Source: Rhizobium sp. WYJ-E13 (lineage in GTDB: Bacteria; Pseudomonadota; Alphaproteobacteria; Rhizobiales; Rhizobiaceae). From it: a stretch of 64,000 nt of DNA. Position numbers and translations under genes: made by a program. The stretch is taken from positions 4,270,501-4,334,500 of the forward strand of contig NZ_CP076853.1 of assembly GCF_018987265.1 (NCBI RefSeq), given 5' to 3'. Below, one piece after another: positions 57,507-59,542 of this stretch. Position 1 is the stretch's first letter. Each line of letters starts with the position of its first letter. A model generated the notes under the pieces. That model was not told where the DNA came from. It was given only the letters and a program-made list of their open reading frames with translations, and searched no databases.

Positions 57507-58186
57507 GAAAGAAGCATCCGGTCGAGGGCGGAAAGGACAGGCGCCATGAAGTCGCGCACGGCTGCATCGGCCTTGCCGGGATCGCCGGTCTCGATGGCGT
57601 CGACGATCGCCTGATGTGCCTGCATGTCGGGCTCGGGGATCGCCTTATCGAGTGTGGCGGCAATGGTCTCTGCGATCGAAGTGGAGAAGAAATCATAGAT
57701 CTCGATCATCGCCCGGTTGCCGGAGGCGGCGATGACGGCCTTGTGGAAGGCAAGGTCGCGTTCGATGAAGCCTGCCGGATCGCCGCCTTCATAATTGCCA
57801 CGCTCGGCAAGCAGCACGCGAAGCCCGGCGATGGCGTCGGGCGTCTTGCGGATGGCGGCCAGACGTGCGCCTTCGACATCGAGCGCGCAGCGCGCCTCGA
57901 ACTGGTCGCGCAGGCTGGCGCGCCGCGCCATGGTGAGCGGCAGGCTGTTATCGGTGATCGAGAGCACATAAGTGCCGGAGCCCTGTCGCGTTTCCAGGAG
58001 GCCTTGCGAGACGAGAACGCGCACGGCTTCGCGCACCGTACCGCGACTGACCGACAGCATAGCCGAGAGCGAGGCTTCGTTCGGCAGTTTCTCGCCGACA
58101 GCCCAGCGCTTGGCGAGGATCTCGCTGCGGATCGCTTCGCTGGCCGTGTCGGCAAGATTGGTCTTGCTGAGAGGTTGCATGTGCAT
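57503..58186 (-). CDS. FadR/GntR-family transcriptional regulator (FCD domain)
   Basis: A 227-residue regulator: winged HTH (EILAKRWAVGEKLPNEASLSAMLSVSRGTVREAVRVL, residues 22-58) and an FCD ligand-binding all-helical domain with metal ligands (ERDLAFHKAVIAASGN near residues 140-155; AHQAIVDAIETGD near 192). The start is ATG at 58186 or 58180 (M-H-M). A 41-base palindrome covers 58183-58223, overlapping the first start, indicating tight autoregulation of this operon. Confidence 0.92.
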   Translation of the reverse strand: MHMQPLSKTNLADTASEAIRSEILAKRWAVGEKLPNEASLSAMLSVSRGTVREAVRVLVSQGLLETRQGSGTYVLSITDNSLPLTMARRASLRDQFEARCALDVEGARLAAIRKTPDAIAGLRVLLAERGNYEGGDPAGFIERDLAFHKAVIAASGNRAMIEIYDFFSTSIAETIAATLDKAIPEPDMQAHQAIVDAIETGDPGKADAAVRDFMAPVLSALDRMLLS

Positions 58187-58223
58187 TATTCATAAAGTCA
58201 TCCGATGACTTTATGAATAATGC
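58183..58223. promoter_or_regulatory. 41-base perfect palindrome, candidate GntR operator
   Basis: Twenty-base arms (58183-58202 and 58204-58223) are exact reverse complements around one C (58203), with the core AAGTCATC-C-GATGACTT. It covers the 5' ATG of the GntR gene and the sequence just upstream. No T-tract follows, so it is an operator rather than a terminator. FadR/FCD regulators bind shorter palindromes inside such elements. Confidence 0.75.
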
Positions 58224-58257: not shown

Positions 58258-58290
58258 AATAAAAAAAGGGCCGCTTTCGCGACCCTTTCC
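58258..58290 (-). terminator. Intrinsic terminator of the 23-codon gene
   Basis: On the minus strand AAAGGGTCGC, loop GAAA, GCGGCCCTTT and then a run of T (TTTTTTTATTG). A stable GNRA-looped stem with a textbook T-tract, about 60 bases past the stop at 58348. Confidence 0.8.
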
Positions 58291-58347
58291 ATGAGGTTTG
58301 GCCTGTAATTGGCCGGACCGTCTTATGCGGTCCCAGGAAGGCTGGGT

Positions 58348-58419
58348 TTAGAACGAGGGCTGCCTCGCTTTCATCACCACTTCCATGCCCATTACGAGGT
58401 CCGAAAACTCATTAGACAT
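58348..58419 (-). CDS. 23-residue peptide gene, PqqA-like central motif
   Basis: A 24-codon frame starting at the ATG 58419, with AAGGAAGGTGATCC ending one base before it. This is close to the full anti-Shine-Dalgarno complement and implies very high translation. A candidate promoter and a strong terminator bracket it. The peptide starts MSNEFSDLV and continues GMEVVMKARQPSF. The GMEV block resembles the G-[ML]-E-V core of PqqA, the PQQ precursor, but the Tyr that would cross-link four residues after Glu is Lys. No pqqBCDE or radical-SAM gene is near. It could be a divergent RiPP precursor or an unrelated small protein. Confidence 0.6.
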   Translation of the reverse strand: MSNEFSDLVMGMEVVMKARQPSF

Positions 58420-58456
58420 TGGATCACCTTCCTTTCGTTACGTTGACGATGATCTA

Positions 58457-58485
58457 AAAGTAGGCTGATTCCCCTGAGATGCAAG
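58457..58485 (-). promoter_or_regulatory. Candidate promoter of the 23-codon gene
   Basis: Minus strand CTTGCA (58480-58485), 17-base spacer, TACTTT (58457-58462). This gives a leader of about 30 bases before the ATG at 58419, holding only the ribosome site. Fits the rhizobial housekeeping pattern moderately. Confidence 0.4.
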
Positions 58486-58729: not shown

Positions 58730-59542
58730 ATGTGTCGCTGGGCAGCCTATCGCGGAGACCCCCTCTATCTGGAGGAGCTGGTATCTTCGCCCGCCCATTC
58801 CCTGATCGAGCAATCCCATTGCGCCACCCGCGCCAAGACGGCGACGAACGGCGATGGCTTCGGCATTGCCTGGTATGGTGACCGACCGGAGCCGGGCCGC
58901 TACCGCGATATCCTGCCGGCCTGGTCCGACTGCAATCTGAAGAGCCTTGCGCGGCAGATCCGCTCGCCGCTTTTCCTTGCCCATGTGCGGGCCGCGACCG
59001 GCGGCGGCACGCGGCGCGACAACTGCCATCCCTTCACGCATGAAACCTGGTCCTTCATGCATAACGGCCAGATTTCCGGTTTCGAGCGTCTGCGCCGGCC
59101 GATGGAAACCATGCTGGATGACGAGCTCTTCAACGCCCGCACCGGCACGACGGATTCCGAGCTCCTGTTTCTTCTCGCTCTGCAGTTCGGTCTTCGGGAT
59201 GCACCGATCGCTGCCATGGCGCAGACCATCGCTTTCGTCGAAGGCCTGGCGGAAGGTATTCTGGGATCCGTGCTGCTGCGCTTCACCGCTGCCTTCTCGG
59301 ATGGAAAGTCTCTTTACGCGGTCCGCTATGCTACTGACCGCAAAGCGCCGACCCTCTATGGATCGCCGCTTGCCAAGGGCTACTGCCTCGTGTCGGAGCC
59401 GCTGAACGATGATGGCGATGCGTGGCAGGAAATTCCCGATGGCAGTGCCGTGACCGTCGGCGTCGACGGTTTGGAGATCACGGCTTTCCAGCCCGAAAAG
59501 CGTGCATCCGCAAGATTGGAGCCCGTCTCTATTCCCGCATGA
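58730..59542 (+). CDS. Class II glutamine amidotransferase (EgtC/YafJ-like)
   Basis: A 270-residue Ntn hydrolase-type protein. Cys2 after Met removal is the nucleophile (MCRWAAYRG), with TNGDGFGIAWYG near residues 39-50, the glutamine-binding LAHVRAATGGG near 83-93, and FMHNGQISGFERLRRPM near 108-124. It hydrolyses glutamine or a gamma-glutamyl amide; no synthetase partner is fused or adjacent. ATG has GGAG 7 bases upstream. It overlaps the convergent coaBC by 14 bases. Confidence 0.9.
   Translation: MCRWAAYRGDPLYLEELVSSPAHSLIEQSHCATRAKTATNGDGFGIAWYGDRPEPGRYRDILPAWSDCNLKSLARQIRSPLFLAHVRAATGGGTRRDNCHPFTHETWSFMHNGQISGFERLRRPMETMLDDELFNARTGTTDSELLFLLALQFGLRDAPIAAMAQTIAFVEGLAEGILGSVLLRFTAAFSDGKSLYAVRYATDRKAPTLYGSPLAKGYCLVSEPLNDDGDAWQEIPDGSAVTVGVDGLEITAFQPEKRASARLEPVSIPA

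Follow-up and report, generated by a model that had tools for sequence, protein, structure and literature searches.

A conserved small RNA of Rhizobiaceae with a short reading frame, an interrupted Shine-Dalgarno sequence and a putative internal partner for it

A short unit on the minus strand of the Rhizobium sp. WYJ-E13 genome is real and conserved, and it is not PqqA-like. Judged by its sequence, it represents in Rhizobiaceae a small translated RNA that is spread through the Alphaproteobacteria. What is new is the presence, on an otherwise known kind of small mRNA, of an internal anti-Shine-Dalgarno (anti-SD) sequence and of an interrupted Shine-Dalgarno sequence (SD). The window analysed, meaning the whole stretch of 64,000 nucleotides (contig NZ_CP076853.1, positions 4,270,501 to 4,334,500), contains the unit near its end, and a genome search found this one copy in the genome. 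The unit reads as a stand-alone RNA of ~190 nt that has its own promoter and terminator and carries a short ORF. Its parts, in window positions, are the following:

58485-58480, minus strand: -35 element CTTGCA, read from the sequence; CTT kept in at least 90% and the next G in 60-90% of 182 Rhizobiaceae loci
58462-58457, minus strand: -10 element TACTTT, 17 nt from the -35 element; TA..TT kept at that distance in at least 90% of the 182 loci
58420..58450, minus strand: 5' leader of ~30 nt, its putative transcription start placed from the position of the -10 element
58435-58421, minus strand: extended SD AAAGGAAGGTGATCC, 15 nt, with one A between site and ATG
58419-58348, minus strand: ORF MSNEFSDLVMGMEVVMKARQPSF plus TAA, 23 codons, ATG start
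58354..58367, minus strand: RNA hairpin CGAGG-CAGC-CCTCG under codons 18-22 (A-R-Q-P-S), a helix of the alignment fold
58335..58342, minus strand: post-stop anti-SD GCCTTCCT, predicted to pair with SD bases 58426-58433
58315..58334, minus strand: second stem-loop, variable in sequence, from the window RNA fold
58300..58314, minus strand: third stem-loop GGCC..GGCC, from the window RNA fold
58289..58295, minus strand: CTCATGG, 5' of the terminator, conserved in the 52-locus Rhizobiaceae alignment
58261..58288, minus strand: intrinsic terminator, a GC-rich hairpin followed by seven T, from sequence, window fold and alignment helix
58267..58444, minus strand: full-length match to RF01867 (CC2171) in a covariance-model search, below the gathering score

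Nearly every genome of the genus has the unit (146 of 148). In all 112 of these loci that were read, the extended ribosome site is kept (with a single changed base in one) and the frame has 23 or 24 codons. In the family, blastn with the 251-bp unit gave matches in 56 of 199 genomes when the best three candidates per genome were scored, some of these matches spanning the leader or the terminator alone. The extended site is present in the 30 family loci fetched, at times slightly altered (to GGTGGTCC in some and to GGATGG in L021), and their frames again have 23 or 24 codons. The Rhizobiaceae set was built from 184 loci, of which 182 could be placed and had a frame of 13-31 codons; these 182 include repeats and represent 171 distinct units. 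Exclusion of seven loci without a recognised terminator gives 175 loci (164 distinct units). One batch of 20 regions yielded 13 that fit the pattern, one of them a repeat of the L026 region, and the other seven (L031, L032, L034, L038, L042, L043 and L044) were left aside. A loosely defined promoter pattern is matched by 166 of the 182 loci. The conservation of promoter, ribosome site, frame and terminator is more than chance. The earlier note had proposed a small gene with these signals of its own, and this is borne out, both by direct reading and by their conservation in Rhizobiaceae.

One genome (G113) harbours, 4.4 kb from its intact unit, a second and partial copy (L033:5380-5520). This comprises the 3' half of the ORF, the hairpin, the post-stop region and a terminator-like hairpin, with no extended SD visible before it. 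By its composition, the copy is a decayed or truncated duplicate.

The distribution of changes within the genus separates the parts of the unit. Changes per site amount to 1.83 in the -10 element versus 8.12 in the promoter spacer. They fall to 0.07 in the SD, and are 0.54 in codons 1-8, 2.56 in codons 9-17, 0.13 in codons 18-22 and 3.67 in codon 23. The post-stop spacer has 4.5, the anti-SD CCTTCCT 0.29, and the CTCATGGA / AAACCTCATGGA stretch with CTCATGG before the terminator 0.58. By this measure, the near-invariant parts are those of the RNA, namely the SD, the hairpin under codons 18-22 and the post-stop CCUUCC.

A consensus fold points to the same elements. In an alignment of 52 non-redundant Rhizobiaceae loci (A1), RNAalifold pairs the SD core GGAAGGU with the post-stop (A/G)CCUUCC and places a hairpin under codons 18-22. 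Of the cells counted in the A1 pairs, 97.2% can pair, versus 38-58% in slid versions, and 43 cells carry changes on both sides versus 13.7 in shuffles. The two outermost pairs of the codon 18-22 hairpin account for 35 of these 43, and they are unpaired in 8 and 9 of the 52 rows. The SD:anti-SD helix is nearly invariant; its support comes from conservation together with a small number of G-U changes, not from covariation, which is unable to prove this helix since SD and anti-SD barely vary. L021 (GGATGG), alone in A1 in having an altered SD core, has one pair broken and no compensation.

The position of the anti-SD is also constrained. In 172 of 175 loci, and in 161 of 164 when each distinct unit is counted once, it starts 4-7 nt past the stop, and a complement to the SD of at least 7 nt is found downstream of the stop in 88.6% of the 175 loci versus 4.4% after shuffling. 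The predicted pairing probability between SD core and anti-SD has a mean of 0.775 and a median of 0.963 and exceeds 0.5 in 139 of 173 loci. The RNA of the window itself folds with -73.1 kcal/mol (z -3.89), and in it the CCUUCC can also sit in a local loop, CCCAGCCTTCCTGGG.

The SD has a single occurrence in its own genome and, with one A bulged out, is complementary to the 3' tail of 16S rRNA. This extra A lowers the computed 16S pairing to -26.1 kcal/mol, from -29.9 for an uninterrupted SD; the SD:anti-SD duplex is computed at -13.1 kcal/mol. The 16S rRNA 3' tail entered in these calculations is the generally established one, and no 16S 3' end was found among the 407 fetched loci. Among 132 loci of relatives outside Rhizobiaceae with an uninterrupted SD, a 7-nt complement is found in 13% versus 4% by chance, so that they exceed the chance level only slightly. 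The extra A, which weakens pairing with the ribosome, thus goes together with the internal partner: in the loci compared, the anti-SD accompanies the one-base insertion, and relatives that lack the insertion lack the anti-SD.

The reading frame is conserved in a different manner. The codon analysis used 88 of the 112 genus loci, those with 23 codons, and yielded 99 inferred changes in frame and stop. Codons 2-23 contain 25 synonymous versus 70 non-synonymous changes, which is close to the neutral ratio (omega about 0.89, from a simple count of 95 inferred changes). No change created a stop, where about 2.6 were expected, a number so small that this absence is weak alone. Four changes fell within the stop codon, and each yielded another stop. 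Six codons (S2, E4, G11, Q20, P21 and S22) show no variation among the 88 rows, not even at third positions. When loci were chosen by the search pattern alone (described below), with ORF length ignored and 6 of 148 excluded for missing downstream sequence, a frame-0 ORF of 13-31 codons was found in 141 of 142, compared with 35 for frame 1 and 28 for frame 2. The amino acids would therefore appear to be under no detectable purifying selection, with the frame and the stop position being conserved. Loss of the frame had been named earlier as what would speak against the gene, and the outcome is divided: synonymous changes show no enrichment, but neither stop gains nor frame breaks were seen.

Beyond the family, the search pattern AAAGGA(N)GGTGRTCC-N-RTG-TC ("SD + start + TC") was found, at order level, in at least 171 of 397 genomes and, at class level, in at least 60 of 385. 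At phylum level, it was found in at least 75 of 398 genomes: 75 of the 135 Alphaproteobacteria matched, and none of the 263 other genomes did. All these numbers are lower bounds, since the pattern allows for only a few variants of the ribosome site. Among the matches listed, it never occurs twice in one genome, and a reversed pattern used as control gave no match. The same ribosome-site pattern followed by a 21-codon frame was also seen in a Gemmatimonadota MAG (L088:5065); this is likely a chance match or a contaminant, or may stem from transfer.

Stand-alone small mRNAs of this type have reportedly been described as rreB (14 aa, Bradyrhizobiaceae) and rreR (18 aa, Rhodobacter/Roseobacter), both with an extended SD, by Hahn et al. 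2017 (RNA Biol 14:1353). Control of RNA stability at the ribosome is also reported for them. The study of Hahn et al. is cited in PMC7298713. The pattern-found frames mostly have 18 codons in Rhodobacterales (e.g. VSRVILERGVGTVRGAVA) and Sphingomonadales (MSHGSA...), 14 codons in Bradyrhizobium (e.g. VSYLKRCHLAGIAR) and 20-27 in most other lineages. One frame has 59 codons (L155), and another stops at a contig end (L071). The Bradyrhizobium and most Rhodobacterales loci have GTG starts, and these 14-codon and 18-codon loci fit the descriptions of rreB and rreR. The unit in the window resembles both in being a stand-alone small mRNA whose SD matches most of the 16S 3' tail, with a tiny ORF directly after it and a peptide that differs among lineages. 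The conserved -35 element, -10 element and terminator suggest that the window unit shares their character as independent transcripts. It differs by its 23 codons, its ATG start, an SD split by an extra A and the anti-SD past the stop. With 23 aa and ATG, it is therefore classed neither as rreB nor as rreR.

A second known relative is filed as a small RNA. The window matches Rfam RF01867, the Caulobacter sRNA CC2171, over model positions 1-159, with 25.2 bits (E 0.002) against a gathering score of 75. In its genome this is the best match (E 0.0065, the next 8.84). No match in the 61 family genomes attains the gathering score, and matches with E up to 10 occur in 10 of 14 control genomes. The match is thus weak by score, and what matters is its position at the small ORF. 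The gathering score is passed in two of ten loci, Bosea (88.5 bits) and Falsiroseomonas (75.5), exactly at the small ORF; below that score, the model falls on the small ORF in 5 of 5 Bradyrhizobium, 6 of 6 Rhodobacterales and 3 of 5 named Rhizobiaceae loci. Moreover, the RF01867 consensus contains the ribosome site and, after it, a start codon in the form of GUGUCUCAU. Taken together, the data suggest a small mRNA behind RF01867, not an RNA that is wholly non-coding. An RF01867 locus is already listed in a Mesorhizobium survey (PMC5596092).

Besides its filing as an sRNA and its score, the family differs from the window unit in its long-range closing stem, between the ORF start and CTCATGGA. 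This stem was rejected for Rhizobiaceae, where the own 5' strand gives 5.08 nt versus 4.97 nt for a foreign one. With lineages sorted by peptide start rather than by taxonomy, the own strand was likewise no better than a foreign one in Rhodobacterales-type and other MSS-starting loci. The stem was supported in 30 VSH-like loci (at least 7 nt in 50% versus 3%), and 21 Sphingomonadales-type loci gave a modest excess (6.0 versus 4.88 nt). CTCATGG (58289-58295) is nearly invariant in Rhizobiaceae, even though its pairing partner in the model is unsupported there.

In Sinorhizobium meliloti, the protein SEP1 is described as having 23 aa and a pI of 4.18 and as conserved in Rhizobiaceae. Of 54 non-annotated high-confidence sORFs, it is reported there with the top Ribo-seq translation efficiency, and tagged SEP1 was detected by Western blot, along with one peptide-spectrum match (PMC10117765). 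Among the genomes compared, the nearest to S. meliloti 1021 pSymB (G1140, G1132 and G1133, with 94-95% identity over 4 kb) have orthologs of the window unit that encode MSNEISDLVMDMGEVKESRQPSA. Like SEP1, this peptide of Rhizobiaceae has 23 aa and a pI of 4.18 (Bjellqvist scale). The same pI occurs in 6 of the 44 Sinorhizobium/Ensifer-type loci read, out of 46 (the pattern missed L353 and L354), and is therefore not unique to one species. From the length and pI of the relatives' peptides, the window unit is likely the ortholog of SEP1, and this likely S. meliloti ortholog is translated. No paper linking SEP1, rreB and RF01867 was found in the openly licensed literature searched.

The reading that we favour, by a little over an even chance, is that the unit is a ribosome-gated small RNA of the CC2171 / rreB-rreR type, likely the SEP1 ortholog, in which translation itself and not the peptide is selected. 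In the free RNA, the SD would be closed onto the anti-SD as a lock. A 30S subunit that wins the SD would open this lock, and the ribosome would translate the 23 codons. On terminating just upstream of the anti-SD, it would cover this sequence and thus leave the SD open for the next ribosome. If each ribosome keeps the SD open for its successor, translation would be cooperative and would report the supply of free ribosomes. Under this proposal, the stop position and the frame would matter and the residues would not, because it is the terminating ribosome that covers the anti-SD. The output would most likely be the lifetime of the RNA itself or its availability for pairing in trans.

Several points speak against such a gate. 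The top translation efficiency reported for SEP1 (PMC10117765) is unlike what a closed SD would give. In the computed energies, SD:16S pairing is far stronger than SD:anti-SD pairing, so the ribosome should usually win. Relatives with a perfect SD lack the anti-SD, which therefore is not the founding function; the other lineages, without the lock, have just an extended SD and a short ORF in common. A more specific version, which is possible but doubtful, would make the unit a self-gating, ribosome-sensing switch with an irrelevant peptide, whose SD was re-tuned by the insertion from the 16S tail to the internal lock. Since the anti-SD lies 4-7 nt past the stop, in the shadow of the terminating ribosome, the ORF would act as a timer. 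With the SD re-tuned in Rhizobiaceae in this manner, a conserved alphaproteobacterial RNA would report the number of free ribosomes.

Alternatively, the unit may encode a functional small protein, a 23-aa peptide that acts itself, for example at the membrane or on a partner. The frame, start and stop kept in all 112 genus loci would fit this, as would the detection of SEP1 by Western blot and one peptide-spectrum match (PMC10117765) and the recurrence of MS[NS]E..S and of [RG]QP[SP], the latter in 175 of 182 Rhizobiaceae peptides. A conserved-peptide reading is, however, weakened by the codon analysis, which detects no purifying selection on residues. The conserved codons are fixed synonymously too and lie within segments conserved as RNA, one of which is a hairpin whose outer pairs show compensation. 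Class-wide, the peptides have little in common beyond the Ser after the start, where the search pattern itself required TC. The earlier note had argued that nothing else lies in the unit and that the peptide is its product; this does not follow, because the RNA itself bears conserved structure. We consider a peptide acting in its own right improbable.

The same low probability is given to a trans-acting sRNA whose C-rich CCUUCC pairs with the SDs of other mRNAs, the small ORF being a by-product or a gate for exposure. CCUUCC is almost invariant in the genus and able to sit in its local loop, RF01867 is filed as an sRNA, and 33% of the 54 translated non-annotated sORFs of S. meliloti lie on annotated sRNAs (PMC10117765). 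On the other hand, CCUUCC is missing in the relatives with a perfect SD, and the predicted fold places it on the RNA's own SD.

The unit is very unlikely to act as leader or attenuator for the GntR-family regulator gene that lies downstream (58186-57503). The gene lies on the same strand, with ~75 nt from the terminator to its start codon, but a conserved terminator separates the two, and among 30 fetched loci the GntR gene is downstream in L001-L004 and L007 only. Elsewhere, the unit comes after a quinone oxidoreductase-like or acs-like gene (named by reading the sequence, with no family scan), and the leader reading was rejected on this synteny. An inverted repeat with 20-nt arms (GCATTATTCATAAAGTCATC / GATGACTTTATGAATAATGC) at 58183-58223, spanning the listed start of the GntR-FCD gene and the bases directly 5' of it, is probably that gene's own operator.

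The least probable reading, to which we give practically no weight, is a PqqA-like RiPP precursor, and it was rejected on non-conserved GMEV and Lys and on empty family scans. It had been suggested by GMEVVMK, which resembles the PqqA core in the sub-branch of the window. The tetrapeptide GMEV, which PqqA and the window peptide have in common, is confined to part of the genus: it occurs in 33 of 112 genus peptides, in the same number of the 182 Rhizobiaceae peptides (genus included), and in 1 of the 148 of the pattern set. Lys is at position 17 in 85 of 112 genus peptides. Of the features whose conservation had been put forward, the length (23 or 24 codons) holds throughout the genus loci read, and GMEV and Lys do not. 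The window peptide has no Tyr at the cross-link position or elsewhere, and the Tyr found in 5 of 112 genus peptides stands upstream of the core, as VYG, away from the PqqA position. No Pfam family (E up to 10) and no NCBIfam family (E up to 1) matched the window peptide, and an NCBIfam scan of three relatives' peptides gave no match. The two flanking genes scanned with Pfam and NCBIfam encode the GntR regulator and a class-II glutamine amidotransferase; neither is a PQQ gene. The amidotransferase (58730-59542, plus strand) scores 179.3 bits with NCBIfam EgtC, under the cut-off of 218.65, and is presumably a relative of the YafJ type rather than EgtC proper.

Three things that have been filed separately thus appear to be tied together: an Rfam "sRNA" family, the small mRNAs with an extended SD, and the top-translated novel sORF of S. 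meliloti. The unit also calls for caution, as conserved short frames with a high Ribo-seq signal can persist for translation itself and not for the peptide. If the ribosome-gated reading is true, Rhizobiaceae would possess a simple reporter of free ribosomes, built on a class-wide RNA.
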